From the NCBI GenBank assembly GCA_016617855.1, contig JAECUM010059219.1, positions 39,425-103,424 of the forward strand: 64,000 nucleotides of DNA, written 5' to 3'. Positions within the stretch are counted from its first letter, which is position 1, and each line of letters starts with the position of its first letter. Below are positions 35,935-64,000 of the stretch, piece by piece. The position numbers and the translations under genes were made by a program. The notes under the pieces are model-generated. The model was not told the origin of the DNA, did not search any database, and saw nothing but the letters and a program-made list of their open reading frames with translations. The stretch comes from Megalonaias nervosa (Eukaryota > Mollusca > Bivalvia > Unionida > Unionidae).

Positions 35935-35946
35935 ATAATAAATAAT
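35935..35946. promoter_or_regulatory. 12-bp all-A/T divergent spacer between ATPase and PLA2 genes
   Basis: The bases between the two divergent start codons read ATAATAAATAAT. The matching spacers are ATAATAAATAAT in A, just left of 21338, and ATAATAAATAGC in C, at 50439-50450. A TATA-like bidirectional core promoter is possible, but the space is too short for two conventional 5' UTRs, so transcription starts may lie inside the opposite gene. Confidence 0.4.
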
Positions 35947-36447: not shown

Positions 36448-36464
36448 ATTATATAACTATCATA

Positions 36465-40736: not shown

Positions 40737-40744
40737 CTTTATTA

Positions 40745-41251
40745 TTATCGTCTTCGTCTAACACGAAGACCACTTCGGGAAGTGAGACCACTTCCTGCTA
40801 TCAGACTAGCGGTTATATTTTTTTCTTTGTCTGACATCGGGACATCAGCCAACTCCGCTAGTTTTTGATTAGCGGCTTGATTTATTATTTTACTTACACT
40901 TGCGGGCATCACTTCAGTGCTGACCAATTTCACAGGTTGAGGTCGGGTCGCTTGTGGTTTGCGTATTAATCTTGATAGTCTATCTTTGATTGCTGAGAAT
41001 GCTTTGCTAGCAATATTACCAACAGCGCTTATACCTTTTTCACGAACAACATCAATAGCTTTCATTCCTAGTTGCTTTGCAATCGGTATTGCTTTTGGGG
41101 CTATTCTTCTAAACAGACCCTGAACAATATCACCTAGTCCATCTCCGTAGGTCGTTTTGTATACCGGTAGTCGAGAGTTTATTACCCTGACCATGGTAGG
41201 TCCACGTTGATTACCATGCACGATCATTTTGTTATTAAATGACTTTATCAC
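40745..41251 (-). CDS. pVI-like minor capsid/core protein (element B, intact)
   Basis: An intact frame of 168 codons; the start is probably the ATG at 41227, since copy D starts at the matching position. After a basic N-terminus (MVRVINSRLPVYKTTYGDGL) comes an amphipathic, membrane-active-looking stretch (DIVQGLFRRIAPKAIPIAKQ). Further helical repeats follow, then a very basic tail ending GLRVRRRR, as expected for a DNA-facing minor capsid protein. The order with the capsid gene resembles the adenovirus pVI/hexon pair; homology is inferred from layout and character, not shown. The gene is 8 bp from the capsid start and 9 bp from the 385-aa gene. Confidence 0.7.
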   Translation of the reverse strand: MIKSFNNKMIVHGNQRGPTMVRVINSRLPVYKTTYGDGLGDIVQGLFRRIAPKAIPIAKQLGMKAIDVVREKGISAVGNIASKAFSAIKDRLSRLIRKPQATRPQPVKLVSTEVMPASVSKIINQAANQKLAELADVPMSDKEKNITASLIAGSGLTSRSGLRVRRRR

Positions 41252-41260
41252 TAATTGTAT

Positions 41261-42418
41261 CTAATCACTATGGTAGTCATCGGCGATTTCATTATTGAGA
41301 GACCGATATACATTAATATCCATGATACCGCCTGTAAATAATCGTTTGCAAATATCAGCTGCTTCATTGATGATTTCTGGGGAATTATTACCAGCTCGTT
41401 TTCCTCCAATGAGGATTTCTAGTCGATCAACATCAGCAAGAACGTTATTGGGACAAGTAATAAGACCACTCCCTAAACCACTTCCAGTTGCGCCAGGATC
41501 TTGATATTCTTCCTCAGTTATTTTGACTGGTTGTTGTGATTCTTCTTCTTGTTGTTGTCGTTGTAGTAGTGTTTGCAGTCGTGGTATTGGTTGCTCTGGT
41601 GATGGAAATTTGAGTCGTGGTGATGATATTGGTGATAATTCAAATTGTCGTGATGCTTTTTTACTTGGTTTCGATGGTGTTTTGAATGATTCTGGATAAT
41701 CACGAAGTGATTGCTCAAATGGTTTTGGAGATTGTTGCCTTTTACGTTTTTTTCTTTCCATTTCTTCTTCTTGTTTTCTTAATTGTTTTAATTTATTAAT
41801 TTTCTTATCATAATCCTTATATAATGGATCATCATCTCTAGCTTGTTGAACATTCATGCGTATGCGATATAAATATTTTTGCCATTGTTCACTGCTTTTA
41901 ATATCTTTAGCGTGTTCAGGTTTCATTAATTTACCTCTTCGACTAAAACTATCCACAGCAAACTCAGCTAGTTGATCTTGGTTCAAGTTATTAATTACCT
42001 TAATAGATTCTTCATCAAATTTATTTAACAGTTCAGCATTAATTATAGGATATACTGATTTTGGTTCAGGGGCTAGTGCTTCAGCAACTTCAGGTTGATC
42101 TTCATCCTCAGGTATTTCCGGGACTGGCATCGCAGCAGCTATTTCGGCTGGAAGTTCACGTAAAATATCTTTTGTCTTTTTTGTTCTTCTTGCTATTTTT
42201 TCAGTTGCTTCAGCTGTTTTCTCTAACACAGGTTGAATACCTTTAGTTGTCTCAGTGATAGGTTTAAATAATTTTTTTGTATCCTCTTCAAATTCAACTT
42301 GAGATTCCTGACGCGATAGTAGTTGTTGCTTAACAGAATCACGAACAGGTAGATATTTTTTAATTGCCTTTAGTCGCTTTCGAGCTAATTTAGCTGAGTG
42401 TGGTTCTCCAATACTCAT
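41261..42418 (-). CDS. 385-aa lineage-1 protein with coiled-coil N-terminus (element B, intact)
   Basis: An intact 385-residue protein, the reference for the broken copies in A and D. Residues 1-110 are charged and helical, with SAKLARKRLKAIKKYLPVRD near the start. Residues 210-310 are rich in Lys, Gln, Ser and Pro (low complexity). Residues 319-385 form the conserved end, CPNNVLADVDRLEILIGG followed by AGNNS and a helix. There is no signal peptide or membrane segment. It is the first gene inside the right TIR and is transcribed toward the capsid genes. I do not know its function; a core, scaffold or tegument-like protein is possible. Confidence 0.8.
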   Translation of the reverse strand: MSIGEPHSAKLARKRLKAIKKYLPVRDSVKQQLLSRQESQVEFEEDTKKLFKPITETTKGIQPVLEKTAEATEKIARRTKKTKDILRELPAEIAAAMPVPEIPEDEDQPEVAEALAPEPKSVYPIINAELLNKFDEESIKVINNLNQDQLAEFAVDSFSRRGKLMKPEHAKDIKSSEQWQKYLYRIRMNVQQARDDDPLYKDYDKKINKLKQLRKQEEEMERKKRKRQQSPKPFEQSLRDYPESFKTPSKPSKKASRQFELSPISSPRLKFPSPEQPIPRLQTLLQRQQQEEESQQPVKITEEEYQDPGATGSGLGSGLITCPNNVLADVDRLEILIGGKRAGNNSPEIINEAADICKRLFTGGIMDINVYRSLNNEIADDYHSD

Positions 42419-42452
42419 TATTGATAATATCTATAATGGCTGTTTAATTTAT

Positions 42453-42636
42453 AGCAGCAGGAAGGGTGAACGACATACGCGTAGTGACCAGCACGTGAAA
42501 AAAATCAGAAAAAATCTGGTCAATTAGAGAAGTTTTTACTGTTATGGCAAAAACTTTTTTTTCAGCCTTCGTAGGAACCCTTAAATTTCAAAAATAAGGT
42601 CTCTACAAAGTTGTAGGGTTCACCCTTCCTGCTGCT
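42453..42636. repeat. Right composite TIR of element B (184 bp)
   Basis: This is the inverse copy of 35081-35261, with a few single-base and homopolymer differences. It again carries the 19-bp inverted repeat at both its own ends. Confidence 0.95.
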
Positions 42637-42641
42637 TCTGA
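42637..42641. repeat. 5-bp target-site duplication TCTGA, right of element B
   Basis: This is the second copy of the duplicated target; the interrupted pX-like gene of element A continues immediately after it. Confidence 0.9.
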
Positions 42642-42679
42642 CCAGGAGTCAAGCTGACACTAACATGATGACATGACAT
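42642..42679 (-). pseudogene. pX-like minor capsid protein, N-terminal stub (element A)
   Basis: From the ATG at 42679 the codons give a short VSVSLTPGQ stretch, the start of the protein whose remainder is at 34689-35075. The gene was split by insertion of element B after about 13 codons. Confidence 0.75.
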
Positions 42680-42701
42680 TATAATATCATGAGCGATTTA
42701 A

Positions 42702-44027
42702 TTACATGTTCTCCACTAGGGCATCAATGACTCTTATTCGAAAACTAACACCTTTAAGCAACACCGCTTTATCTGAGAATATAACAGCGACTGCTCTATA
42801 ACCACTAGGAATAGCTGGTGGACCACGTATGGCAGCAGGTACATCCTTCTACATGAGCTCGGAAATGTATGTCAACGGCTGATTGTCTGAGCAAATCCAA
42901 GTGTTCCAGTAAGAAATAATAGATCCCATATAATGTTGTGAAATCGCGCTGATATATCCGGAAACCAGAATCCACATTCGGATCACGCCCCATAAATGTC
43001 ATCAATTGTTGATAAGCACGTGCAACATGATTGTATTCAAAATTCAATAATATATCTTCAGAAGGCTCTTGATGTCCATTTAACCTCAAAAAAATTCATT
43101 AACTCCAAGCGTGTCAGACACCATTGGATTTCATTCCTGCGAATTTACTCTGGCATTTTCCTGAAACGCGATGAATATATGTCGTGGTGCTGACACTCCC
43201 TGCTGTGATGCTATCTGCTATGTGAATAACCCAGAAACATTACTTTGAATACTGTCTGTGGTCATCGTCAACCATGACAATGTTGATTTACCACCTTGAT
43301 CCATAAACGAAAGTAACCGTTGTTCTTCGGTTAGTGATGGCGTTATTACCGGCATCCACATCAAAAGTTTTGTCAGTATTACTTTACCTGCATCAACGGC
43401 AGCATCACGCCATATTGCATCATTGTCGGTGGCTTTTTCTGTCAAGTACCACTGTGTGTTTAGCACCAAATATAACTTTTCTAACATTTCTACAGAATCC
43501 AAGTATATGTAATAGTGGATTCATCGCAGTTCAACATTGATCGACGTGATGCGAATCCCAAGTTGAAGTTTACATTCATTGATGCAACTTCAGTTCCAGC
43601 TGCATGGAATGTTACGTTTCTGCTTTCTGGATGATCAGTTGTATCCTTTGCAAACATCATTGATGGACCAAATGATCTCGAGTAATCATCGCTGTATCTT
43701 GCAAGGCCAGGTATCGTCATGACAACATCGACATTTTCCAGGCATGATTAAATATTTCGTCCATCGATGCTATATGTGGCACTGTTAAATGTCGCCATGA
43801 CGCCATTATTAACAAAACAGCTCGATCACTAATTCTGTATGCTGTATCAGCTGCTTTCAAAAGTCTGCCTTCGATCTCAATAAATACCTCAGCGGGCAAG
43901 AAATATCTACTTGTATCCTGAACTTGCAAGTCGATTCTTCCTTGTGCGTTCGGTGCACGTGCGTCATAAGAATAATACTGATAATCATGTCGAATGTGGG
44001 ATCAGATACACGTTTAAATATTTTATT
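42702..44027 (-). pseudogene. Major capsid protein (element A copy)
   Basis: Fragments in successive frames (44020-43720, 43720-43490, 43502-43218, 43089-42805) align along the capsid proteins of B and C. Among them are FKRVSDPTFDM at the start, GPSMMFAKDTTD, LLMWMPVITPSLTEEQRLL, MDQGGKSTLSWLTMTTD and LNGHQEPSEDILLNFEYNHVA. The initiator codon is altered and there are at least five frame breaks. The protein would be about 440 residues, short for a Polinton capsid protein but the same in C as far as visible. Confidence 0.75.
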
Positions 44028-44039
44028 ATGCTTCATATC

Positions 44040-44491
44040 GTCTAACACGAAGACCCAAAGACCACTCCCCGCTATTAGACTAGCAGTTTTTTTTCTGAAC
44101 TGGGTACACCAGCCAACTCTGCTAGTTTTTGATTCGCAGCTTGATTTATTATTTTACTAACATTTGTTGGCATAACTTCTGTGCTGGGTACTTTTGCTGG
44201 CTAAGGTCGGACCGCTTATGGTCTGCGTATTAATCATGCTAGTCTGTCCTTGATAGCTGAGAATGCTGTACCGGCAACATCGCCAACAGGACCAATACCT
44301 TTATTACGAACAACGTCATTAGCTTTCATTCCCAGTTGCTTGCAATCGGTATTGCTTTTGGGGGTTATCCTTCTGAATAGGCACTGAACAACATCACCTA
44401 GTCCATCCCCGTAGATCGCTTTGTATGTAGGTAATCGTGAATTTATCACACTGACCATTACAGGTCCACGTTGAATATTATGAATGATCAT
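44040..44491 (-). pseudogene. pVI-like minor capsid/core protein (element A copy)
   Basis: ATG at 44491 opens a frame matching the element B protein (VINSRLPTYKAIYGDGLGDVV, then KQLGMKAND). A stop after AIKDRLA near 44234 and further stops downstream break it. The downstream part still aligns (STEVMPTNVSKIINQAANQK). Confidence 0.75.
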
Positions 44492-44525
44492 ATTATTTTC
44501 TTGTCACTGATCAAATTGCATACCC

Positions 44526-45535
44526 TCAATCACTGCGGTAATCATCAACGATTTCATCAATGAGGGACCAATAAGCATTAATGTCCATGATACCGCCTGT
44601 GAATAATCTCTGACAAATAGCAGCTGCTTCATTAATGATTTCTCGGGAATTATTGCTGGCTCGTCTTCCTCCAATCAGAATTTCTAATCTATCTACGTCA
44701 GAAATTACGTTATTGGGACAAAGTTTGTCAGGCAACGGAAGGGTTTTTACACTGCCAGTAGTAAGACCTTTTCCGGATTTTTTGCCTGGTTTTTGCAATG
44801 CTGGCTGTGGTTGTTTGTTTTTGTCGTTGTTGCAATTGTGGTTGTTGTTGTAATTGTTTTCGTAATTGTCGTTGTTGTAATTGTGCGAGATAGTTATCTA
44901 TCCCATAGATATATGCAATATATTTTGTATCATTATTTCTGGCCTGATGAACTCCGAAGTGTATGCAATATATCCATTTGTCCTAGGCTTCACGACCTAC
45001 AGCATCATCAGCGTATTCGGGTTTCAAAACTTTTTCTCTATTATCATAACTTTGCACGGTAAAGACAGGTAATTCTTCCACGCTGTCAAGATTTTTTATG
45101 AAGGCAATATAATGTTCGGTAAATGTATCATTCACTTCAGTTCTAGCTCTTGCTTTTTCTGTTTCTGGTTCTGATATAAGATCCTTTATGTCGGCTACTT
45201 CAGAACGAATCTGGACAATACCCTCAAGTATTTCTTGTGTTTTGTGGTTGTGCAGAAGGTTATTTTCACCTGGAAGTTCTCTTAGAATCTTTTTTATTTT
45301 TTAGTTTTTTCTGCTATTTTTCCAGTAGCTACAGCGGTTTGCTCAGTTGCTTTAGCGCTTTGCTTCAACGTAGGAAGAAGACCCACGGTAGCTTTGGTAA
45401 CTGGTTTAAATAATTGTTCTGCACCTTCTGTAAATTCCACCTGGGACTCCTGACGCCCTTGTAATTTTTGTTTGACAGAATTTTTTAATTACCGCCAGTC
45501 GCTGTCTAGCTAGTTTAGTTGTACGAGATTACATG
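44526..45535 (-). pseudogene. 385-aa-family protein (element A copy)
   Basis: The conserved C-terminal end (44798-44526: CPNNVISDVDRLEILIGG, NNSREIINEAAAIC) is open. The N-terminal part up to 45535 aligns in pieces with the copies in B and D, including a Gln-rich stretch near 44800-44880 and a VNDTFTEHYIAFIKN-like region near 45110. Several stops and frameshifts are present. Confidence 0.75.
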
Positions 45536-45587
45536 TTTAGCGTTATTATTGATATAATAATGATTTAATTACACCATCAAACCGTTA

Positions 45588-45820
45588 CCGTTTCCACACC
45601 CATGTAGGGGCGGGGTATTTTTGACGCACAAAAATATAACCCGATTAAAAGTCTCAGTGATGCTTGCATTTTTCATTTTGCGTAGGAAGCTTTATTTCGG
45701 TCTGAAAACTTTGTATATTTACCATCCCCGACTTAGCGTTATTGACGCTTATATTTCTCCGCCCTTCGTAGGAAGCTTCATTTTGGTCTGAATATTGGTC
45801 TGTTCACCCTCTCTGCTGCT
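45588..45820. repeat. Right terminal inverted repeat of element A
   Basis: It ends GTTCACCCTCTCTGCTGCT and contains CCTTCGTAGGAAGCTTCATT, related to the TTCCTACGAAGG core of the other TIR subfamilies. It pairs inversely with 20398-20650 and is followed directly by GTATC. Confidence 0.88.
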
Positions 45821-49496: not shown

Positions 49497-49765
49497 AGCA
49501 GCAGGGAGGGTGAACAGACCACTTGTCTGAATCGTCATTTGTCTAAAACATAAGGTTCCTACGAAGGCTGAAAAAATAATGTCAATAACGCTAAACCGAA
49601 CCTTCTAACCGAGATTATTTCCACACGGTTGAAAACGGATAATATATCGTTTGGGTTAGCTCATTTTTGTTATTTTATTGTTGATTTTTTGTTTTTATTT
49701 TATAGTGCGTTTCGTTTACTCGCCTGGTCACTCAATATTGGTTGTTTTTCACCCTCACTGCTGCT
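49497..49765. repeat. Left composite TIR of element C (269 bp)
   Basis: It begins AGCAGCAGGGAGGGTGAAC and ends TTCACCCTCACTGCTGCT, with TTCCTACGAAGGCTGAAAAA inside. It matches 1306-1574 over its whole length in inverse orientation. Confidence 0.92.
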
Positions 49766-49769
49766 ATAA

Positions 49770-50438
49770 TTAACCAAAGATTTTATCCAGACCTATACGA
49801 TATCTGGGTCTTGGGTCATGTAGATTTATTGTTATAAATCCGAACGGAACAGCTTGTGCTTTTGAAAAGAAGTTTTTAAACTTGACCATATCCATATCCC
49901 CTGAACACCAAGTAAAATAAATATTTTGTAGGGTATAATTATCTACTCCATTAAACACGACTAAAATATTACAGTTATCTCTGATCACTTTTGGAATTTG
50001 TGTCTATCGCTGAGTAACATAAATCACGTCAGTATTTTTATGTCTACCTTGAGAAAATATTCTAGCTGGATTTGATTGTTTGTCCAGCATAACGACATCG
50101 TACACCACTAAATTATTAATAAATCCATCTAGGTCATCTACAGATGGGGCTTCATCAATATCGGTAATAAAGTCAACAACATCATTACCGTCTTCATTCA
50201 GCAATTTTGCATTTTCATTAAAATCTTTAGGTACTTCGTAACACCTCTGATCGTCTACAGATGGTGCTACTAAATATAGTTTATCCCACTTCAGCTATCT
50301 CATTATTAGATTAAGCAATAATTGTGTTTTGCCTGATCCAGATGGGCCTATTATAATCATTCTGATAGAATTCGGTAACGCTGGATGATGCTTTACTGGT
50401 TCCTGTTTCTGTGTCGCAGAAAAGTCAATTATATCCAT
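49770..50438 (-). pseudogene. A32/FtsK-HerA-type packaging ATPase (element C copy)
   Basis: Full-length homologue of the element B ATPase, same start and same stop position. Walker A GPSGSGKT is intact, but the second Asp of Walker B is Val (VVYDVVM). Two TAG stops interrupt it: one after LIMR near 50295 where B has Trp, and one after VTQR near 50005 where B has Tyr. Apart from these it is colinear, so inactivation is recent. Confidence 0.9.
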
Positions 50439-50450
50439 ATAATAAATAGC

Positions 50451-50951
50451 ATGGATTTATAATGCGTTCGATGTAGAGTACCTACAACTACTGCCGAATT
50501 AACAACAATAACAACGAAGAATAAAAGACGTGCATTTACAGGCAAGTGTGTGAAATGTGGTACAAAAAAATATAGATTTATTTCATCAAAGACAGGTGGA
50601 TATATCGCCGCTTCATTAGGGAATTTACCAGGAACTCCATGGGCTAAATACCCCGGTGAGAAACATCTTCCTGGATATAATTATTGTGGTCCTGCAACTC
50701 GACTTGATATCCGACTTGATGATCAAGATCAACCAAGACCAGGAGAGTATCCAATAAAAAAGATTGATCAAGCGTGTCATGTTCATGACGTTGCGTATAA
50801 AAGTAAAGATTTACAACAACGGCATCTCGCAGATGTAAAATTGATACATGCGATAAATTCTATACCTAATAAATCTGTCAGAGAAAAATTCGCTAGTTTC
50901 CTAGTAAAAACTGCCATGAAAGGTAAAATAATGTTAGGGGCTGGTAATTAA
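50451..50951 (+). pseudogene. Zinc-ribbon/phospholipase A2 protein (element C copy)
   Basis: Colinear with the 166-aa element B protein. The fourth codon is TAA and is the only stop; the rest of the frame is open to LGAGN. The Ca-loop (YCGPAT) has one glycine replaced by Ala, and the HVHDVAY catalytic pair is kept. Whether an internal start at 50550 could still give a PLA2-only product is unknown. Confidence 0.88.
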
Positions 50952-50967
50952 TTATATAACTATTATA

Positions 50968-51949
50968 ATGGAGTCTGTTTATTATAGACCAAGAGGATAT
51001 TGGAGAAGCAGAGCAGCGATTAGTAAACTTGCTGAAGCAGCAAAAGTCTCACGTTCTGTTGCTGCAGCGTGGTTAGCACGACAGGCAATATAGCAAATTT
51101 ATCTACCACCACTTAAAAAAATTCAGTACGCACATTTTGATGTCAGCACCCCTAATGAAGTTCATCAAGCATATATTTTATTTTTACCACACGATACTAT
51201 TAAAACACGTAGACGTCAATCACGCACATACAAATACGCATTAACTGTCGTTGACGTTGCAAGTAGATATAAAGAAGCTGAACCATTATCAATAAAGACA
51301 GCATCTGAAGTTGCATCTGCGTTTGAGTGAATTTATCAACGTGGTGGTCTACGATGGCCACAATTATTACAAGTTGATCCTGGCAAAGAATTTCTTGGTG
51401 CAGTATTATCGTTGATGAAGAAACATAACGTTAAAATCTGACAAGGACACACTGAAATTCATCGTGATCAGGGAATCATTGCACGATTTAATCGAACACT
51501 TGCTGAGCGGTTATTTGGATATCAATGCGCAAAGGAAATATCCACTGACTTTAAGTCCGGTGAGAGATCTCGTGAATGGGTTGCAAGGTTAGCAAGTGTG
51601 ATAGCTGCATTCAATAATGAAATTACTCGTTCAACTTCCATGAAACCTTCTAATGCGATCACAAAAAAATATATACCAATACAACTCCGTGAATCTTCCT
51701 CTCAACCAGTATTAGGTAATGTAACTGTAAGATATTTATATGAACCTGGTGAACTTGAAGGTGGTAAAAGAAAGAGTAACTGATCCTATCTGGAGTGTGA
51801 CTACACATACAATTTCTAGCGTGGTTAGATCCACTGGTAGACCTGCAATCTACAGACTTAATTCTACTGCTCCTCAGCGTGGATTTGTACGTGAACAATT
51901 ACAGGTAATCCCTGAGGATACGCAATTACCACCACATACAATTACATAA
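50968..51949 (+). pseudogene. Retroviral-type integrase (element C copy)
   Basis: Colinear with the element B integrase. The first catalytic Asp is Tyr (HQAYILFL), as in element A; the second (LQVDPGKEF) is kept; the catalytic Glu is Ala near 51489. Stops occur at 51091 (where B has Trp), 51328 and 51441. The C-terminal SH3/chromo-like domain is open (51740-51949). Confidence 0.88.
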
Positions 51950-54900
51950 CCAGAACCTCTACGTCGATTGCATTCAAAACAGGTTAGCATCACATTATCA
52001 CGTATATGACCAAGATCACTATTAATTCTGTGTACGGTAAATTGTCTTTGATTATTATTCGAATATTGCCATAACATTACTGCGTTACAGCTTGCACAAT
52101 GATTGTTTTGTTGTTGTTTTAGTGTTATAATAAACTCAGAATCGATATCAAAATCACGATTATTTTTTTGTCACATTGTTTATAACCAGATAGTTTTTTT
52201 CTTATTATGCCATTATTAACAGTTTGATCATTATTTTCTGTAAAATTTATAATAACCCATGTAATTGAGATATTTTTCTAACCCGAGATACTGCGAGATA
52301 AACTAAATTCGACCATTCGATTCGATCATCTACAATCCAGATATTTCTATCTGATATTGTTAACCCCTGTGAAGAATGTATCGTTATAGCGGATCCTAAC
52401 ATCCATGGATATTTATTCATGTTTAATGCACTCTCAACAACATTAATATCGACTAAAATAATATCATTCAAAACGAGATTTTGTACCCCACCACCAGGAA
52501 TTTCAACTTCAATATTTTGTCGTCGAGTATCTGCTGGGCGATAACATAACGGTACAGGTAGATCTGAGAATGTTTCTTTATGTAACAGAAATAATTTCTC
52601 CTGTAGTTATTCACGAACTATCTTTCCAATTGCAACTATTAAATCAGCGGGATTCCATAAACTCAGAAAATCATTCATATTACTCTCTGGAATTACTTTA
52701 CGCATTATCTCACATTGTATTTTATCTGGCTGTAGTCTGATTGACCTTTTAAGTTCTTTCAGCGGTTCATCAATAGCTCTATGGTCATCATTTATTTCTT
52801 CATAATAATCTACATTATTCTTCAGCCATTCATGTGGTGACTGTCCAATAAAGGGTGGTGGTTGACCATGATCACCACACATTATTACAGCAGTATTCTT
52901 TGTTAATAACCAATCAAGAAATGTGTTTAATATTTCTAACGACACCGTGTCTATCTCGTCCCATATAATATATTTAGGTATATATTTCTCACCCATTCGT
53001 TCAGGAGTCCATGTGTCTCCACACCATCTAAAGAAACTTTGATATGTACATGATTTTACTCCTCGTTCTTTTATTGCTCTGGCTAATTTATGTGTGGGTG
53101 TCAAAACAATTATATCTGAACTATTATTCATGAATAATTTAATCGCACGTGTTGTTTTACCTGAACCACCACATCCGTTAAGATAGACGGTTTTGTATCT
53201 AGCCACAGGATCATATACAGATGGTGCTGATGATCTTGATATTTGATCATTTTTGTAATATTTCTCAATAATTTCAACGTCGGCAGATTCAAAATAACTA
53301 AGTATATTTTCTTGTTTTATTCTCCATGATCCCCATTCACCATTACCAAGTAGCGGTTTTAACAAATCTGTATATTTTTTATGTATGCAAAACGAATCCG
53401 TAGCGACTCTGACAGCATAACGAGGAAATATATTTATCATAGACAGTAGATTTATCGAAACATAGGCTAGCATTGAAGATCTTAAATGAGTAAATTGCGG
53501 TCAGTCACCACCAGTATAGCTCACAATTGTACCTAGTTTGGTTCCGTCTCACAAATAAGCATTACATCGGCTTATAAATGTGTTTTTTTCCGTTGTGTCA
53601 GCGATCATAAAATCGAGTTCAGCATCGTCCATAATCAATCTTGTACAGTGTCTTTTATGACCATATGCTCCTCCTTGAGTAAATTTACCAATTATCTTTC
53701 TACCGAGATCTTTTGTAACTTTCTCATCATGTTCATCTCTGCATTTACGTATATTATTAGTAATTTTAATAATGTCATCTTCATTGAGATCAGGAAATTC
53801 TCTCCTGGCATCGTCGATATAAAATCTATCCGGTTCTGGTAACCAAATTTGCTTCTTTGACCGATACGATATAATTGCCTCATTTATCTTTAATAATGTT
53901 AAAATTCCAGCATCAAGCATATATCGTAATAATACTATTGGAACCCAACATTTTTCTGAAAAATGTCTTCCAAATCAAGCATAAGTAATCGGATGGAGAT
54001 CTTCTGTAAACTCGAATGATTCTATATGGGCAAATCCGGTTAAGTCAAAATCTGGTAAGGGTCCGTTTATCGCAACTCTGGTTATCTCGTGTGATGGATG
54101 TCCAAATCTCTTAAAGTATTCAGAACATTCTCCGTATCCAAGAAAACTTCCAGGATAACATGCTACCATAGCAACTGAGATAACGTCGTTCTACTTGTAT
54201 TTAGGATTCCATAATCCACCGTGTCCATATTCTATACAACTTTTCTGGATATCTTCAATAAATTCTGATCGTGTCGGTTTCCATGCATTTTTCTCCTGAG
54301 CGAAGTGAGCAGCAACTGATGGAACTGTAAAACAATTATTCAGTAACTGCCTAACTTTGACATCGTCAGAAGTATATTTCAGCGCAAGATGTTCCATTTC
54401 TACATGAAGAGATTCTGTACGATAAATATCACCATTAGGCCGTACAAACTGATCATGATAATCATATTCTGAACTTTGAAATAACCAAACAGACACAGGG
54501 TCACTTTTACTGATATTTTTTTGATAAAATCAAATATATGACCATCATAAAATTTAAACGTTCTGTCTCGTGGAAATATTGTTACAGCATTAGTCCATGC
54601 ATGTGCATTGTGATCAATAATATCTATCGAAGCTCCTCTTGATTCATATTTCGATTTATATAAAATCTCTCCTGTTAACGTCTTTAATGTTATTGGAAAT
54701 TTTAATAGCTTTCCCAACTCAGCAACATTTTTAATAGAAGCTCCAGTATCCTTGACTGATTCTGCCCACGTATTTATTTTTTTTCGTCGTAAATCTGTTA
54801 AACCATTACCACGTATCGCGTTTGTGAAATGTTCTGTAACTCGTTCAGCTACACAGTTTATTCTTGACTCTGACAGTCTCATCGGTTTGAGATCCGCAAC

Positions 54901-55395
54901 GCTAGGTTTATTATTCAGCGGATATATTGCATATACAACCGCAGTCACAGGGTATCCACGTTCATAAAACGGTTTGTCAATACCAGTCAGTATTCCGGGT
55001 TTGGATTTATTACTCAAGATGACAATATTATTTCCCGACTGCATACGGACTGGATCACGCTTGTCACGAATAATCCAAGTATCGTCGTCTGTCCTTAAAA
55101 TAAATTTTATTAAAATAAAATATTTTTGAACATCAAGGTGGTTAATAATCATTCTTCCTCGTTTGTCATTCATTATAGTATCGACAATATTTCCGATCCT
55201 AAATGTTGACCACACATGAGCCGCACCATTGTCACGAAATTCCTTCTTGGCTTCACGGATACGTTTGGTTATATCCTCATTTGTTAAGGCTAGATCTTGC
55301 ATCGAAACACTAAATTTATATTCTGATAGTCTGTCAAGATCAAATCTAGTTCCCGCTGAGACTGCGGAAGGCTCAATGATGGATAATTCTTCCAT
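51874..55395 (-). pseudogene. PolB-SF1 helicase-HNH fusion, full length (element C)
   Basis: The most complete copy. From ATG at 55395 a 331-codon frame forms an N-terminal region without an obvious 3'-5' exonuclease motif. Then come a GHGG-containing block (54496-54191), palm motif A (MVACYPGSF, with the usual Asp replaced by Ala two residues earlier), a motif B-like KFTQGGAYG (53690) and motif C VRVATDS (53400). The same frame continues into the SF1B helicase with Walker A GCGGSGKTT (about 53170), IWDEID, CGDHGQPPP, TIHSSQGLT and LAVSRVR, and finally an HNH-type domain (TVHRINSDLGH, 52050). Four or more stops or shifts interrupt it, including TAG at 54191-54193. Palm and helicase are joined in one open 288-codon frame (53473-52607). 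Confidence 0.9.
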
Positions 55396-55427
55396 TATAA
55401 TTAAGACAAATATTTAAATTAAATTTT

Positions 55428-55428
55428 A

Positions 55429-55502
<74 letters not shown>
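55428..55502. repeat. (TA)n microsatellite upstream of the polymerase start
   Basis: A TA run of about 75 bp lies 33 bp upstream of the fused polymerase gene's ATG, between it and the divergent zinc-ribbon gene. Confidence 0.97.
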
Positions 55503-55594
55503 TGATTCAAACAAAGAATCGATGTATTTGGCTCAAAATCGGATATACTTCTCCTTGTAACAAAGCATGCGTGAATGAATTCTGCTGCTACCAT

Positions 55595-55747
55595 ATGCAA
55601 AGCGTTAAAAATGGTAGTCTAGGACCAAAACCGTGTGTGCAATGTGGTGTTGGAGTCAGAGGAAAAACTCAGTTATGTGTAAAATGCGGCGGTAAAAAAT
55701 ACAGAGAATTAAAACGATATTATGACAAAAAAAAAATAATACTTTGA
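55595..55747 (+). CDS. Small zinc-ribbon protein, 50 aa
   Basis: An open frame from ATG to TGA with two CxxC knuckles (C14-V-Q-C17 and C28-V-K-C31) and a basic tail (KKYRELKRYYDKKK). It is a single zinc ribbon of the type fused to the PLA2 in this lineage, but here it stands alone. It diverges from the polymerase fusion and precedes the HNH gene by 89 bp. It may bind nucleic acid; no more can be said. I see no copy in element A. Confidence 0.6.
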   Translation: MQSVKNGSLGPKPCVQCGVGVRGKTQLCVKCGGKKYRELKRYYDKKKIIL

Positions 55748-55836
55748 CATCGTCAGGTAAATCTCCTATAAAAACCGTAGAAGATTATCTGGTCAGATTT
55801 CAAAACAATGATTTAAACAAATAATATTATGTATAA

Positions 55837-56319
55837 ATGGAGCAAAAAGAATTTGTGGCACAGCCAATCATTAAAAGTTATGAGGCGTCTCGAGATGGTG
55901 TAATCAGACACTGTCGATTAAAAAAACCAGTCGGTAGTGTTAATAAATTTGGTTATTTTAAATTCAATACCAGTGTAGATAAACATTATTTATCTCATAG
56001 ATTCATATTCGAATGTTTTTATGGGGTCATCAAAGATGGACTTGTAATTGATCATATTGATGGAAATCCCAAAAATAATCGGTTATCTAACCTGCAGGCT
56101 ATTACACAGAGAGAGAATACTGCACGTGGAAATACTGGTAAATATCCCAAGATCCCGAGATTTGTTATATCCATGAATACAGAAACAGGCCAAGAAATAA
56201 CTTTTCCATCAATTAGTGCAGCTGCAAAACATTTTGGCACACATCCACAATCAGTACAATTTGTTGCAAATAAAACATACAAATCTGCATTTTCAAAAAA
56301 AAATATAATCAGCCGATAA
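55837..56319 (+). CDS. HNH homing-type endonuclease (NUMOD/HNH family), intact
   Basis: An intact protein of 160 residues. An N-terminal NUMOD4-like segment (YEASRDGVIRHCRLKKPVG) is followed by an HNH core: SHRFIFECFYG (52-62), then LVIDHIDGNPKNNRLSNLQ (69-87), with H54, the DH at 72-73 and the Asn residues placed as in phage and organelle HNH homing enzymes. The C-terminus has a NUMOD1-like FPSISAAAKHFG (123-134) DNA-binding helix. Such enzymes nick or cut DNA and spread their own gene. It is absent from the equivalent place in element A, so it is probably a later passenger. Its frame is clean although the neighbouring viral genes are broken. Confidence 0.88.
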   Translation: MEQKEFVAQPIIKSYEASRDGVIRHCRLKKPVGSVNKFGYFKFNTSVDKHYLSHRFIFECFYGVIKDGLVIDHIDGNPKNNRLSNLQAITQRENTARGNTGKYPKIPRFVISMNTETGQEITFPSISAAAKHFGTHPQSVQFVANKTYKSAFSKKNIISR

Positions 56320-56406
56320 TATTTGAATATATCAGATAATTCTGTACTCTTAACAAAAAAACAGAATAAATAAACATTTTTTTACTGTATAGTTCAACTC
56401 TGTTAA

Positions 56407-56813
56407 TTATTCCCAATCAATCAGGACACTTTCACCGTCGCTGCTCTCAGTGTCATTGACATAATCAAATAACATAAACTTTCTTAGTTGCGTTGCATGA
56501 TTATCTACAATCTTCTTTTTCTCGTATTCACGAGAAAGTTCAGATCTGATATTTTCGATCGAACGTGCAAGAGGCGCAAATAATTTTACCTCTTTGTCAT
56601 TTACTCCTGCCAAGGATACCAGCATTGATTGATAAATCAGTTTCATGAATCTGTACTCAGATGTCAGTGTGTATTTACCCTCGGTTTTTCGTTGTTCCAA
56701 TTAATTAAAATCGCATAATATTTTCTCAGGATCGAGATTATCAGAGAGATTTATTCCTTCATGTTGTATTTTTTTGATAGCAGAAATAATAGCATTAATA
56801 TTTTCTCGGTTCA
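56407..56813 (-). pseudogene. 135-codon small gene of lineage 1 (element C copy, one stop)
   Basis: From ATG at 56813 (NRENINAIISAIKKI) the frame runs to 56407. One TAA lies near 56702, after a DPEKILCDF segment also seen in element A. The second part, 97 codons, is open and helical with an acidic end (DTESSDGESVLIDWE). Homologous fragments occur in A at 27511-27912 on the opposite strand. No recognised domain; it may be regulatory. Confidence 0.7.
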
Positions 56814-58129
56814 TATATAATAATTATTTCTTCAATATAAAAAATATTTACAAAACATATAATCACAACACAACCACATATGAGCTCCTAGATTGCCAAA
56901 CAACATTCTAGCAAGCTCAGAGGCATTCGAAATTAGACGAAACACATTTATACAGACTCAACCCCCATGTGAACCCCTAGGTTGGCAAACAACATCCTAG
57001 AATGCTCAGAGGGTGATCCGTAATTTTATTAACGACACAAACACAACAAATAAACTTATCCTAATGAACATATGATTGTATGATCATGATTATATATACA
57101 TATGATTATGATTTTGATTTTTTGCAGACAGCACAAACATAAACTTATCCTAACTTATCCTAATGAACATATGATTGTATGATCATGATTATATATACAT
57201 ATGATTATGATTTTGATTATATTTTTTGCGGACGGCACAAACACATAAACTTATCCTAATGGACGGCACAAACACATAAACTTATCCGAATGAATATATA
57301 ATTGTATGATTGTATGAATATAATACATGCAATAGTGATGACGAGGGAATCTTGTCTACGTCCAACAGATTTTATACACTCTCCTCCCATACAAAACCCC
57401 GGGGAGTGCAAAAAGTACACCCACCACAAGGGTGTATGATAGGAGAGTGTATTTTGTCTGTTGTGGATTTCGAGGAAATTCTCCGGGTTCCCCCAATTTA
57501 TAGCATCCGTCGCCGAATGCAAGATAATATATCTTTAGCATTTTTGGAGACTCGAACACACAGAGAGTCTACAGAACTTGATCTACGTGCAAACGCCTTA
57601 ACACCTCGGCCACCGCATCTCTTATGAATATACAGTTAAATTTAAGTATATAACTATTTCCACTGTCTCACATGTGATTACTCTGGACTTGTATTTACTA
57701 ATAGAATAAAATCGGTTATTGTAGAACTGTAGCGTGAATTTACTTCAATTTTTCAAACATAATTCATAAAATAATCGCATATTACATTTTCTGCATGAGT
57801 TATCGTTCGTTAGGTCAAAATACATGTGTTATAAGAGCTAAAAATAACTCTGATTTGTAATTCACCGCACTTGTATAAACGGACGTGAATTTAAGGTTAT
57901 CAGAGTCAAAAAATGCATCAATATCCCTCTCTGTTACAAATTGCTGCTTCACTAACAACTAATTGCTTACAGAGAACAAATAAATCACTAAATAATTAAC
58001 GAAAACAAGATATATTCGTTGTCTATAAATCAAACGTAGTAGTAAGGGAGATAACCGTTTAATTTGCTCTGCAGAGAGAGAGGGCAGAGTTATCTCGTTT
58101 TATGATATGTACAATTGCCTCACACATAT
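56814..58129. other. Non-coding part of element C with short duplications
   Basis: There are two related segments (56885-56930 and 56965-57010) containing CAAACAACATYCTAG, and three copies of an ACTTATCCTAATGAACATAT/ATGATTATATATACATATGATT block at 57050-57300. A SINE occupies 57323-57622. The remainder to 58129 shows no coding sequence. Confidence 0.6.
57323..57622 (-). repeat. tRNA-derived SINE (Leu/Ser-like head) with 10-bp TSD
   Basis: On the minus strand from 57622 a tRNA-like head shows A-box-like GTGGCCGAGGTGTTAAGGCG and B-box-like GTTCGAGTCTC, separated by a long variable-arm-like spacer as in class II tRNAs (Leu/Ser). An unrelated body and tail follow. TATGAATATA flanks both ends (57313-57322 and 57623-57632), a convincing target-site duplication. 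It inserted after element C. Confidence 0.85.
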
Positions 58130-59070
58130 TATTCAGATTTTAATGATTTGAGTATTGTTCAACCCATCAGATTGAAGAATTTGTAACAATTTTATTAATC
58201 AGAGTACCATTTAGCCCATCAGAATGAGAAAATTCTGATTATTTTATGAAACAGAGTACCATCTAACCTATTTGATTAACGAATCTGTAGATTTCACGAA
58301 TCAATATCAATATAAAGTTGATAACAGTATAATAATATTGTTTGATACATCTGTAGATATTTCATAAAACAGAGTACCATCTAACTCATCTGATTAAGAA
58401 AATTCTGATTATTCCATGAAACAGAGTACCATTTAACCCATCTGATTAAGAAATCTGTAGATATTTCATGAAACAGAGTACCATCTAACCCATCTGATTA
58501 AATATTTCATAAAACAGAGCATCATTTAGCCTATCTGATTAAGAAAATTTTGAATTATTTCATGAAACAATATTATAACAGAAGGTTGGTTAACGAGTAG
58601 TTATAATAATATTGTTTGATAAATCTGCAAATATTTCATGAAAGAGAGTACCATTTAGCCCATCTGATTAAGAAAATTTTGAATAATTCGTGAAACAGAG
58701 CACCATTTAACCCATCTGATTAACAAAATTCTGATTCTTTCATGAAACAGAGTACCATCTAACTCATCTGATAAAGAAAATTCGTGAATATTTCATGAAA
58801 CAGATTAAAAAATCCGTAAATATTTCATTGAATCAGATTAGCAACTCCGTGATTATTTAGTGAAACAGAGTACCATCTAACTCATCTAATTAAGAAAATT
58901 CTGATTATTTCATGAAACAGAGTATCATTTAACCCATCTGATTAACAAATCTGTAGATATTTCATGAACAAGAGTACCATTTAGCCCATCAGAATGAGAA
59001 ATTTATAATAATTTTATTAATCAGAGTACCATTTAGCTCATCAAAATGAGAAAAGTCAGTAAAAAAAATA
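58130..59070. repeat. Degenerate minisatellite of about 50 bp units within element C
   Basis: The phrase ATTTCATGAAACAGAGTACC followed by CATCTGATTAAGAAAATTCT-like sequence recurs about 16 times with irregular spacing near 50 bp. The array lies immediately downstream of the surface-protein gene stop, in the space between the replication and virion gene blocks. I saw no comparable array in element A. Confidence 0.9.
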
Positions 59071-59114
59071 ATTATATTATTTCAGAATCAGATTATTTTT
59101 TTCCCTTCATTATA

Positions 59115-60624
59115 TCAGGAAATATTTACTCGGACGTTCAAAGAGCATATATATAGATTTATAATTAAAACCTCATTTCTTAAATCCAAAATGTGTCCTG
59201 TCTGGTCAGTAAGCTTGAAATTTATTCTTGACAATAATGGATTATGTAGACGTAGATAAACTGGATTAATTGGCTCAGATACAATTAACCACTCGGGCAG
59301 CGCTTGAGGGCTAAATGAATATAATATATACCCTTGTTGAGCTTGAGTGGATTTTTCAAGATATACTTGATAGCTGCCATCAATTACGTCACATACTAAA
59401 TTGACTGCGATCGCTGATGTCATATTAACAATATCAGGAGAAATATGACGACCTCCACCGTGTGGATCATTATTATATTTAAGAATGATTGGTGTAGGTA
59501 TTAATTTTTTCCATGAATCATATATTCTTTTTAAGTGTTCATCAATAAGATCATTAACTGATTTCTTTAGCTCTTCAGAGTTAAATCCCGGAATTACAAA
59601 TGTTGCTAGCTGTTCTTCTGTAATTCCATAATGTTTAAGAAACACTGTTGTAAATAAACGTTTATGACATACACGTTGAATTGGGCTGTCTTCATTAACT
59701 ATGTAAGTATTAAGAAATCTATCTGCCGGTGCGTTTAATGATTTTTCTCTGTCAACGATAGCCTTATTTACATATTCTAAGTCTGATGCAACTTGATTCA
59801 AATGTTGTATTGTTTCAATTATTTGATTTTTTAAATCATCGTCATAAAAAGTGTTGGTGCTGGAAAATAAATTTCTTAGATCATTAAGTACACGTCCATG
59901 TTCAGATTTAATTGGTCTTGATTTTGAGTTAATTTCTTCAACGTTAATTGTTGCTATTCTTGCTGTACCTTTCTTACCCTGAATGAAATCTATAAAATGA
60001 GTATAATGTTTATAACCACGATAAGCATCCGGATTCTCTATAAATGGATACGTTTTTCGATATTCTGGGATTTTTATAAATTTTTTAACATTTATAACGA
60101 AATTAGATCGTTGTCGTTCTGGTGGGCCTTTATAAAGTGGTTCAACTTCAGGCCAACCTAATACTGATCTAATCAAACTTTGATAAATATCTACAGAATA
60201 ATCAGGGGAATTTATTTCAATCACCGCTGATAATGTTCGTTAGTAAACAGTAATTGCTATTTTGGATTCTTTTCCTGTAATAGATTTAATTATGCGTTGG
60301 AACTCATCGTTGATTTGTTCTATTTGATAAATGCCCGTTGGAATACTAACTACTTGCCAATCAGGAGTTCCATCAGGCTTATTCTTATTAGCGAATGCTA
60401 ATGAATTATTGGCTGTAGTCCACCAAATGGTTTTGATCTAATATTTGGCCAACTATAATAAACTCGTAGTTGTTCTAATGCTATTTCTTTTGCAAGAATT
60501 GCAGTTGGAAAGTTAACGCTAAACTCAGGATTGGTCGAACCTAATGAGATCATCGTAGTTTTTGACGGGGTTGTATTAGTGACGATCTGTTGAAGTAATT
60601 CTCTTGACGCTGCCGAAGACTCAG

Positions 60625-60628
<4 letters not shown>
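59115..60628 (-). pseudogene. Putative virion surface/penton-position protein (element C copy)
   Basis: ATG at 60628 starts a roughly 500-residue protein. The N-terminal 70 residues (STNPEFSVNFPTAILAKEIAL) and the next block (GIYQIEQINDEFQRIIKSITG) are conserved with element A. The open stretch 60224-59115 is 369 codons, with a helical middle and a C-terminus reading NFKLTDQTGHILDLRNE. I recall this LTDxxGxxLDLRxE ending in Maverick-associated proteins of unknown role. It heads the virion block and could be a vertex or spike protein; this is a guess from position. A frameshift near 60405 and a TAA near 60240 break it. Confidence 0.6.
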
Positions 60629-60697
<69 letters not shown>

Positions 60698-61213
60698 TAT
60701 TATTATTATTATTTAATTCGCCTTGGTTATTGTGAGTGACTTTATCACCAAAATCACTAGCGATTCTGAATGCTTCATCGTAGGTTTTCATTATGGTTGC
60801 GAACTCCTCATCAGATATTTTACCATCACTGAGGTACAAGGAAATATATGACGATAATTTAGAATAGGCTGTTGTTGCTATATTTAATTTTATTATATAC
60901 TAATGTAATTTAGTATTTGAACATGCAGATGTCTTCTTAGCTATAATACTGAGTATACCTGCGACAGTCGTTGAAGTTGAAACGACAATTGTTACAACTG
61001 CAGGCGCTGTCATTGTTATTGTTGATAATAATAATCCTGCCTCAGCAACAATAGCAGAAACTGAATAAACAATTATATCAATGACAACCATACGTCTGCG
61101 ATATTTTGTTTACTTTTACTTTATAATCGTCGATTATATTTTTTAATTCAGTCTGACATTTACATACTTGATTATATCTGTGACGTTGAACGTCGATTGA
61201 GGTTTGATCCATT
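60621..61213 (-). pseudogene. Small membrane protein with poly-Asn tail (element C copy)
   Basis: ATG at 61213 gives a charged N-terminus (DQTSIDVQRHRYNQVC), then in a shifted frame a long hydrophobic stretch (IVYSVSAIVAEAGLLLS and APAVVTIVVSTSTTVAGILSI), probably two membrane segments. The conserved helix YLSDGKISDEEFATIMKTYD follows. The last 30 codons are almost all AAT, so a microsatellite has become a poly-Asn tail. The frame overlaps the next gene's start by 8 bp. Breaks near 61095 and 60900. Confidence 0.65.
60629..60712. repeat. (ATT)n microsatellite at a gene end (reads as poly-Asn)
   Basis: About 26 ATT units with two single-base changes lie in the 3' end of the membrane-protein gene, abutting the ATG of the surface-protein gene. 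Confidence 0.97.
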
Positions 61214-61236
61214 ATGCAATGACGTTACGTAATTAA

Positions 61237-61533
61237 TTAAGGAGTTTCAGCTACGAATTCCAGACACCACCAGTAACGTCTCGGAGGCATTTCCGTTGAT
61301 GTCACCGCAAATATTTCTTTAGTGTTTTTATTTAGCATCACCAGCAGAGGATTATGATATACATTCTGTGATGACGAAGTGGCCGTAGTAATTTCCAAAC
61401 TATTCATGGACAGCCTGTATAACCCAGTTACTTCTGCGGTATGTTCGAGAGTTTTATTTTGCGGTGTCCATGTTGATGATCCCGATGCTACTGTATACAC
61501 AATATTTTTAATCTGTCCGTGTGGAATTTTAAT
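61237..61533 (-). CDS. Conserved ~90-100-aa lineage 1 protein (element C copy)
   Basis: The frame is open through YTVASGS, TAEVTGLYR and RYWWCLEFVAETP, as in the element A protein at 30305-30607. The initiating ATG of A is not preserved here, so the start is uncertain and the gene may be dead. No recognised domain; a short, probably beta-rich virion-block protein. Confidence 0.55.
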   Translation of the reverse strand: MKIPHGQIKNIVYTVASGSSTWTPQNKTLEHTAEVTGLYRLSMNSLEITTATSSSQNVYHNPLLVMLNKNTKEIFAVTSTEMPPRRYWWCLEFVAETP

Positions 61534-61611
61534 CAGATTAGTTTTTGAACAATATTAGATATTCCACTGACAATGTCGTTGAGTTTCATGTTAACGTCGG
61601 CTAGTTTTATG

Positions 61612-62310
61612 TCAACGGTTGGTTGTTCCCCCCAAAAAATCTTTAATGGTTTTGTTTATATTTCGACGAAAATTTAAGAACGTTTCTACATGTCTAGAAA
61701 AAGTATTATTGAGTGTAGTCATTTTGTCATTGATTGTTTTTAACTAAGTTGTCATATGAATTTCCTTATCATCGACGTATTTCTTCGTTGCAGCATCAAA
61801 ATCTAATTCTGGTGTTCTTAGATTATTATTATTAATACCACTGTTATTCATGTTGAGAAATGCACGCATTATACCGCCATTGACTAATACATACTTAGAT
61901 TCTTGATCACCGACATAATTTTTTGTTGCGGCGTCTGTATCTGCGGCTGGGTTTCCAAGGTCTATAACTTTATTTTGATTCATAATAATGTAACCCGTGA
62001 ATGAGTCACCAGCTTTCTTGATATAATCGTTGACTGACGTACCGGAATCTTGTATTTTACCCTCATCAGTAAAAGTAACGATATTATCAACAACCGCATT
62101 AGGAACTCGTATGAGTACATCTGGCAGTTGTATATTACTCGTCTTTAATGGTCCTTCTTTATCCTGAAAAACAACTACCTCATTTTGATCCACACTTGTG
62201 ATATTTAATTAATCGTCAATCTCATTTCTGAGCTGATCAAGGGTTGCATATTTAGATAAATCAGCTTGCTGCTGAGCTTTGCGAGAAGATCTTCCGTAAA
62301 TATCTATCAT
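61612..62310 (-). pseudogene. Fibre-like protein with phage-tail-fibre repeats (element C copy)
   Basis: From ATG at 62310 the frame is colinear for 233 codons with two in-frame stops (near 62210 and 61745). It contains NPAADTDAATKNYVGD, ELDFDAATKKYVDD and a similar preceding unit, i.e. the DAATKxYVD repeat common in phage tail and collar fibres, plus a beta-rich N-terminal half and a helical end (FLNFRRNINKTIKDFL). A trimeric receptor-binding fibre is the natural reading. It is 8 bp from the protease stop, so the virion genes are tightly packed. Confidence 0.78.
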
Positions 62311-62318
62311 TATATTTA

Positions 62319-62732
62319 TTAATGTCTGTTTAAATGTGACAACGTAGTATATTCATGCACGACTTTATGAGGTCGTTTTGTTGATTTTGATACAACATCA
62401 AGTACAGCGAGTACTTCACGACCACATATTGGCGGATCAGTTAACGTTTGTGTTGGTAGCGTTGAATACCATATTGGCGTACTTTGTATGTTGCTAACAT
62501 ACTCTAAGAATTATTTTGGTGGAGCTAGTCCATATGAATCAAAATAAATAATTCCACGTGGATCAATTGCATATCCAACCCAATGAGTGCCTGGGCCAGA
62601 GTTTTTATCGAGATTAATAATACCAGTTTCAATATTGTTTGGTTGTGTTGGTAATTGATCACGCATAAAAACGCCTCTGAAGTTTTTTATTTTTAATTTT
62701 TTAGCAGCATCGAGTAAATCAAAATTGGACAT
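62319..62732 (-). pseudogene. Adenain-like (C5-type) maturation protease (element C copy)
   Basis: A 138-codon frame from ATG at 62732. His is in SGPGTHWVGYAID, an acidic residue in IIYFDSYG, and the likely nucleophile Cys in PPICGREVLAVLD. A single TAA near 62511 interrupts the frame shortly after the acidic motif. At about 137 residues it is shorter than adenovirus protease (about 200) but keeps the His, acid and Cys order. It would cleave capsid precursors. It lies between the pX-like and fibre genes. Confidence 0.85.
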
Positions 62733-62740
62733 AGGCAGAA

Positions 62741-63301
62741 TCAATGAACTGTCCCTGGTAATTTCAGACCCTTTCCGTACCATGAATACGGGGTCCCTGG
62801 TAATCTTAGACCGCGACCGTATGCTGGGCCTGATAATCTTAGACGACCCGGCTGTGGCACGTTTGGTGCTCTTAGACGTCTTCCGTGTTGTTTTGCCCGT
62901 GACCTTTCTTTTAAGCTTTCTGCGTGCATGATTCCCTGACCCGTTGCTTTCTTTAATGCCATTCCAGCAGCGGTTCCAGCGGCACCTAATGCAGCTGCTT
63001 TTGCAACAGCTGGGGCTGCAGCGGCTATTAATGCTGGTATAGCAGCAAGAAGAGGAAATATACCACTCGTCTTAGCGATGTCTTTGATAGCGCCCGCAGA
63101 AAGATTAAGTTTTATACCTTTATTTGATGTTTTGGCTTCATTGAAGTTTCTGAACTGACGCTCGGTCAGTGATAATTTATTTGCACCGGTCATTTGTTCA
63201 TTTTTAACGATTTTTTTTATTCCACAGTTATTGTTTGATGCTGATTGTAGCCTTTTAATCTGACCAGGAGTCAGACTAACACTAACGTGATTATATGACA
63301 T
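62741..63301 (-). CDS. pX-like minor capsid protein (element C, intact)
   Basis: An intact protein of 186 residues from ATG at 63301. The N-terminus is VSVSLTPGQIKRLQSA, followed by LSLTERQFRNFNEAK and a GIKLNLS segment. Then comes a long Ala-rich hydrophobic stretch (IFPLLAAIPALIAAAAPAVA), and finally an Arg/Gly/Pro tail with repeated G(R/K)GL(R/K)LPGT units. Polintons commonly carry a protein of this layout, compared with adenovirus pX or pVI and thought to bind membranes and DNA. In element A the same gene is the target into which element B inserted. Confidence 0.78.
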   Translation of the reverse strand: MSYNHVSVSLTPGQIKRLQSASNNNCGIKKIVKNEQMTGANKLSLTERQFRNFNEAKTSNKGIKLNLSAGAIKDIAKTSGIFPLLAAIPALIAAAAPAVAKAAALGAAGTAAGMALKKATGQGIMHAESLKERSRAKQHGRRLRAPNVPQPGRLRLSGPAYGRGLRLPGTPYSWYGKGLKLPGTVH

Positions 63302-63324
63302 TATAATATTCATAAACGATCTAA

Positions 63325-64000
63325 TTACATGTTTTCTACTGGAGCATCAACGACTCTCATGCGACCACCAACACCTTCAAGTAGCATTGATTTATCGCTG
63401 AGTATAACGGTTATGGCTCTGTAATTAGTAATTTCTACAATATTTCTGTTAACCCGAGCTCGAAAGTGTATATCAACTACTGACTGTCTGTATAAATCCA
63501 GATGTTCCAGCGAAAAGTAATAGATCGGATACAACGTTGTAAAATCCAATTGTGATATTTGTAAACCGGTGTCAACATTTTGATCACGACCCATGAACGT
63601 CATCAGACGATGATATACACGTGCTACATGATTTTGATCGAAATTCAGTAAAATATTCTCGGATGGTTCTTGATGTCCATTTATCCTCAGAGATACTTCA
63701 GAAACACCAAGATTGTCGAATATCATTGCATTATGTTCTTGAATATTTACTCGTGCAGCACTTTGAAACGCAATAAATATATGCCGTGGTGCAGAAACAC
63801 CCTGCTGAGAAGCTATCTGCCACGTGAATATCCCGTTAATATTACCCTGAACAGCATCTGTGATCATTGTTAACCATGACAACGCTGATTTACCGCCTTG
63901 ACCCATAAAAAAAATTAGTCTTTTTTCCTCTTCGATAGATGGAGTCATCACCGGCATCCATAATGAAAGTTTTGTTAATACTACTTTACCAGCATCAACA
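63325..64000 (-). CDS. Major capsid protein, C-terminal part (element C, runs off the window)
   Basis: The frame is open from the window edge to the stop at 63325 (about 225 codons visible). It contains LWMPVMTPSIEEEKRLI, MGQGGKSALSWLTM, FTWQIASQQGVSAPRHIFIAF, LRINGHQEPSENILLNFDQNH and a C-terminal AITVILSDKSMLLEGVGG. It overlaps B's capsid fragment up to QQxVSA, which is how the B deletion junction was recognised. Probable double-jelly-roll capsid protein by context and recalled similarity. Confidence 0.72.
   Translation of the reverse strand, partial: VDAGKVVLTKLSLWMPVMTPSIEEEKRLIFFMGQGGKSALSWLTMITDAVQGNINGIFTWQIASQQGVSAPRHIFIAFQSAARVNIQEHNAMIFDNLGVSEVSLRINGHQEPSENILLNFDQNHVARVYHRLMTFMGRDQNVDTGLQISQLDFTTLYPIYYFSLEHLDLYRQSVVDIHFRARVNRNIVEITNYRAITVILSDKSMLLEGVGGRMRVVDAPVENM

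Follow-up and report, generated by a model that had tools for sequence, protein, structure and literature searches.

A probable Tlr1-type polymerase–helicase replication protein with a conserved HNH-type end in polinton-like elements of Megalonaias nervosa

In a 64,000-nucleotide stretch of the Megalonaias nervosa genome (contig JAECUM010059219.1, positions 39,425 to 103,424, forward strand; hereafter the window), there is one gene, present in three copies, that joins a family-B DNA polymerase palm, a superfamily 1 (SF1) helicase and an HNH-type zinc domain. The fusion is very probably a replication protein that stems from an endogenous polinton-like virus (PLV) and belongs to the Tlr1 type, in which a protein-primed family-B polymerase (pPolB) is combined with an SF1 helicase (pPolB-S1H, or Tlr1-like helicase). 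Of the features that mark a Tlr1-like helicase, a PolB palm, a motif C without the first Asp, a C-terminal SF1 helicase and, as in some members, a C-terminal HNH are present. The assignment rests on published descriptions and on a structural match to a TvV-S1 protein. The architecture itself is already known, and what is added here is that an animal-type genome holds a large family of such genes, in the company of those for RVE integrase, capsid protein, ATPase and phospholipase A2 (PLA2).

The earlier note on this DNA knew of no virus family with such a three-domain fusion, but the fusion has been published as the Tlr1-like helicase, C-terminal HNH or GIY-YIG included (PMC11071308, PMC12721341). 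Specifically, the Tlr1-like helicases of PLVs and transpovirons are described as comprising a vOTU domain, a palm and an S1H; their motif C lacks the first Asp, and they are predicted to be active polymerases; and a C-terminal GIY-YIG or HNH is found in those of different PLVs, for which homing invasion has been proposed (PMC11071308). The description of the pPolB-S1H fusion is repeated in PMC12721341, which adds an inverse fusion. In many protist elements, moreover, the helicase carries a fused domain of unknown nature (PMC10120064).

The fusion protein in the window, the genome and other hosts

In element B, a single frame of 544 aa, read from stop to stop, runs from palm motif C (VRVATDS) through the SF1 helicase (Pfam AAA_19 1.3e-8, AAA_30 8.8e-7) into the HNH-type zinc domain (PHROG endonuclease VII 8.3e-10, residues 465-539), in agreement with the earlier note. 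For element C, that note had drawn one frame from motif C through the complete helicase; motif C and helicase do share a frame and the HNH-type domain follows after breaks, but the frame stays open only through the first half of the helicase. The palm and helicase of C lie in another frame than its N-terminal part and contain five in-frame stops, and its vOTU-like domain has a Cys in INCVAE and a His in HNAHAW. The same domain order was also claimed for element A, and copy A is indeed collinear, though heavily broken, with 19 stops over five pieces (Table 1). The N-terminal half of the protein is missing in B, with a junction to a capsid fragment near 39.84 kb, and the Walker A motif of B is substituted (GSVKTT, compared with GSGKTT in 36 of 38 fetched copies). 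All three window copies are thus broken, and intact copies are located elsewhere in the genome.

The 2.19-Gb genome holds at least 80 places, B among them, that were scored. In each, the match to B starts no later than residue 9, extends at least to residue 542 and reaches 93% identity or above, and the palm end is continuous with the helicase (80/80). The match is free of internal stops in 61 of these places, and a stop-free open frame of at least 1,101 aa is present in 13. Of 38 fetched copies, 36, including the reference itself, align with a full-length natural copy beginning at its first residue, in one to four pieces; the alignments of the remaining two begin at residue 419 and, at the end of a contig, at residue 487. 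Natural copies are about 1,150 aa long, in the order N-terminal domain, vOTU-like domain, palm, helicase and HNH, and in eight of the initial 18 fetched copies the frame, counted from its first Met, measures 1,141-1,152 aa. Judged from the intact copies, the three-domain frame should need no splicing. The 11 intact copies among these 18 (the 7 shorter ones were dropped) all have VRVATDS as motif C; their overall dN/dS is 0.26, and every domain of the fusion protein is under purifying selection.

The palm is of the protein-primed PolB type, with motifs A and B present and a motif C of the xTD type, and the SF1 helicase is C-terminal to it in one protein. The modelled palm and helicase folds support a single chain that combines a protein-primed type polymerase with a Pif1/RecD2-type helicase. 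The space between the vOTU-like part and the palm is small for a whole exonuclease domain, yet the match to phi29 polymerase begins at residue 55 of the latter. The domain in the terminal-protein (TP) position is modelled with helices and strands and gave no convincing match. In the viral structure library, a structural match of the protein to a TvV-S1 protein was obtained.

Searches at E <= 0.001 retrieved 111 homologues with the B frame as query and 125 with P0006, a 920-aa homologue, and among the 120 listed matches of the P0006 search, 23 of the 27 new top ones (P0112-P0138) are 1,130-1,275 aa long. Three domains in one open frame, which the earlier note had named as support for its reading, are found both in proteins from independent sources and in the intact genomic copies. 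The 111 homologues gave 50 motif matches, in which TDS is preceded by Ala in 48 and by Val in 2, with a search pattern that allowed Asp.

The hosts are known from named relatives, many of them partial. Animal relatives come from Sinanodonta woodiana (a freshwater mussel), Elysia crispata and Elysia marginata (sea slugs) and Desmophyllum pertusum (a coral), and mycorrhizal fungal relatives from Diversispora, Gigaspora, Cetraspora, Racocetra, Rhizophagus, Ambispora and Acaulospora. Metagenome-assembled genomes of 'Candidatus Thiodiazotropha' also appear, and these matches are presumably DNA of the clams that house the symbionts. A quick tree built from 47 proteins groups the nine fungal rows with one unnamed row in a supported clade, and another supported clade, of nine rows, holds Sinanodonta and three copies from the window's genome; some long-branch joins and incomplete rows, including Sinanodonta and Desmophyllum, are placed unsurely in this tree. 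The window family forms a wide new branch of a known kind, probably an animal and fungal one. We found no report of a pPolB-S1H protein in animals or mycorrhizal fungi in the literature searched, the coverage of which is incomplete, and novelty with respect to host is therefore tentative.

The C-terminal HNH-type domain

The C-terminal zinc domain resembles the phage endonuclease VII family (PHROG 1035; E 1.8e-14 in the homologue P0115). Of 41 aligned rows, 40, 41, 41 and 41 retain the first to fourth zinc Cys, and 41, 41 and 40 retain the Asp, His and Asn. The position that we take to be that of the usual catalytic His, by comparison with T4 endonuclease VII, is occupied by Arg in 39 of the 41 rows, so that the usual D-H pair becomes D-R. 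Among the 11 intact genomic copies, one carries His at this position and another lacks the V-D-[RHQ] pattern. Nuclease activity is therefore doubtful, and the nicking activity that the earlier note attributed to the protein is not borne out by these residues.

The domain could derive from a homing endonuclease that entered the gene of the replicase, or be the remnant of a decaying intein, in either case no working part, and the proposal published for HNH and GIY-YIG ends in proteins of this type (PMC11071308) and the loss of the usual His both speak for this reading, as does a free-standing HNH_3 gene beside the C replicase. We nevertheless consider it unlikely. Animal, fungal and the most divergent homologues share a C-terminal HNH, which is thus not sporadic. 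Furthermore, over the 38 of 49 rows kept by coverage, HNH distances track helicase distances (r 0.80) about as closely as HNH-length helicase windows track the palm (0.76-0.89; palm windows against the helicase, 0.74-0.89), although the HNH-palm correlation is lower (0.72) and that of the whole helicase with the palm is 0.87. Within the 27 main-clade rows, r rises to 0.89 for HNH-helicase and 0.82 for HNH-palm. Of the six segments, the HNH part has the lowest dN/dS, 0.19, with overlapping jackknife ranges for HNH (0.15-0.22) and vOTU (0.16-0.25). The distances and dN/dS suggest, against homing invasion as proposed in PMC11071308, that in this lineage the HNH has been inherited, selected and conserved together with the replicase.

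The HNH_3 gene just mentioned (55837-56319) has a weak NUMOD1 match and lies, in opposite orientation, beside the beginning of the C replicase; a tblastn search of the window gave no further copy of it.

Relation to Tlr1-like and polinton replicases

The pPolB-S1H proteins of Tlr1, TvV-S1 and transpovirons resemble the window proteins in the order vOTU or vOTU-like part, palm (xTD) and SF1 helicase and, in some, in a GIY-YIG or HNH end. Tlr1 itself ends in GIY-YIG (PMC12721341), whereas the window proteins end in HNH. The Tlr1 element, like the window elements, carries an RVE integrase; it is reported to lack an adenovirus-like protease, of which element C shows a weak trace, and it belongs to Tetrahymena, whereas the relatives of the window family are animal-type and mycorrhizal fungal.

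Other PLVs show comparable combinations. The endogenous OmPLV of Oxyrrhis marina likewise has an SF1 helicase and a pPolB in one protein, but with the helicase N-terminal and the exonuclease domain complete (PMC12721341). An OmPLV-type helicase-pPolB was rejected for the window protein, in which the palm precedes the helicase. In cryptophyte PLVs, an SF1 helicase with a C-terminal GIY-YIG occurs in 16 Cryptomonas PLVs, and HNH domains are fused to helicases, in one group adjoining rve-INT; the HNH is N-terminal to the helicase there and C-terminal in the window proteins (PMC12220804).

Animal polintons, Mavericks and adintoviruses share with the window elements the RVE integrase, A32-type ATPase, double jelly-roll capsid protein, inverted repeats and short target duplication. 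To our knowledge, these elements encode a stand-alone pPolB with an exonuclease domain and no SF1 helicase. The window elements thus have the RVE integrase of polintons/Mavericks but not their stand-alone pPolB, a result that rests on the continuity of palm and helicase, no search for a second polymerase gene in the elements having been made.

Could a polinton pPolB have been fused anew to a cellular-type helicase, convergently with the Tlr1-like helicases? The RVE integrase and capsid genes of the elements, as in polintons, would fit such an origin, and a separate fusion in the opposite order has been published for OmPLV (PMC12721341). The domain order, the motif C without its first Asp, the position of the vOTU-like domain and the C-terminal HNH all match Tlr1-like helicases, however; a TvV-S1 protein is among the structure-library matches, and the RVE integrase is also present in the Tlr1 element, making an independent fusion improbable. 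An assembly or gene-prediction artefact, by which separate polymerase and helicase genes were joined by a chance deletion in one copy, can be dismissed: B does carry a deletion joining a capsid fragment to the palm, but motif C, helicase and HNH lie in one stretch at no fewer than 80 genomic places, 13 of them with the long open frame, and in many database proteins, and a chance origin is excluded by the homologues, the scored places (80/80) and the full-length copies (36/38) together.

Through the deletion in B (39693-40424), the capsid-protein fragment reads in frame into the sequence directly preceding the palm, and this junction was not found in 38 other copies.

Setting of the gene and proposed replication

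The window is eukaryotic DNA rich in polinton-like elements (Table 1). Element A is about 17.8 kb long without the nested element B, and the TCTGA insertion site of B is found uninterrupted in a paralogue at 63250-63275; B was thus inserted with target duplication. Genes for RVE integrase, parvovirus-type PLA2 and A32-type ATPase adjoin the fusion gene in A (broken), B and C. The double jelly-roll capsid protein has a Pfam match in B and C and homologous fragments in A, and the integrase gene of B is also present in four of four other loci inspected.

Table 1. Elements, fusion-gene copies and associated genes in the window
Feature	Position	Strand	Remarks
Element A	20427..45792		Inverted repeat arms 20427-20550 and 45669-45792, 85% complementary; holds element B
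Element B	35081..42636		Terminal inverted repeats ~185 bp (96% identity); flanked by 5-bp target duplication TCTGA
Element C	49497..64000		Left terminal repeat at 49497; extends past window end
Copy A of fusion gene	22771..26524	-	Same order, five broken pieces; P0115 residues 178 to 1158 with gaps
Copy B, fusion frame	37445..39079	-	544 aa, stop to stop; palm motif C, SF1B helicase, HNH-type domain
Copy B, broken palm piece	39072..39842	-	Residues 369-593 of P0115; 5' end joined to capsid-protein fragment
Copy C, pseudogene	51949..55395	-	Three stretches
Copy C, N-terminal open frame	54400..55395	-	331 aa from ATG; TP-position and vOTU-like domains
Copy C, palm motif C to first SF1B helicase half	52607..53500	-	Open; VRVATDS; AAA_30 6e-10
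Copy C, HNH-type zinc domain	51949..52170	-	Open; different frame, after breaks
B, RVE integrase core	36423..36950	+	rve 1.5e-7; 32.0 bits, just under curated cut-off of 32.6
B, A32-type packaging ATPase	35269..35952	-	Pox_A32 5.8e-12
B, parvovirus-type PLA2 domain and DUF5679	35875..36447	+	Beside integrase
Parvovirus-type PLA2 domain and DUF5679, second site	50379-50951		Beside integrase
C, DJR-like_dom match	63325..63999	-	9.1e-7
C, possible adenain-like cysteine protease, partial	62511..63071	-	Peptidase_C5 E 0.03, weak, below cut-off

Several further features were observed. A fragment of DNA_pol_B_2 (polinton-type PolB) lies at 8807-11474 (6.4e-8 for 9463-9993), within an arm of an extensive inverted repeat (6269-17770) whose aligned stretches are 91-97% complementary. 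A 374-aa open frame without a Pfam match (59115-60239) adjoins a repeat array with a period of ~52 bp (58106-59066) and has a degraded relative in element A at 28385-28710. Two fibre-like frames (61744-62208 and 30628-31089) contain repeated ATKKYVD-type units, and one weakly matches a phage head fibre family.

The N-terminal domain may prime synthesis at the inverted repeats, and the palm would then extend the primer, displacing a strand. A helicase that moves 5'-3' on the displaced strand travels with the polymerase copying the other strand. The fused helicase, for which we infer this direction, could thus drive the fork, and its polarity would fit strand displacement aided from within. The vOTU domain may release the primer protein by cleavage, the HNH domain may act on branched or terminal DNA, and the RVE integrase would be the enzyme behind insertions flanked by 5-bp duplications. 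Replication in which unwinding is built into the polymerase protein, as the earlier note suggested, is plausible and agrees with proposals in PMC11071308 and PMC12721341, leaving aside its nicking step.

The fuller picture, to which we give slightly less than even chances, is a Tlr1-type PLV lineage of animals (molluscs, corals) and arbuscular mycorrhizal fungi, with at least 80 places in this host including intact replicases, in which the HNH would be a vertically inherited, selected part of a polymerase-helicase-nuclease machine, perhaps for debranching or end processing in the manner of endonuclease VII, and not for homing.

The range of the pPolB-S1H replicases, described in the available accounts from ciliate, algal and giant-virus-associated elements, now includes genomes of animal type and of mycorrhizal fungi, in which polinton-like gene sets accompany them and intact frames persist. 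With the DNA_pol_B_2 fragment in the same window, the spread of two kinds of replicase could be compared within one host, and the conserved HNH part makes the published idea of homing invasion testable.
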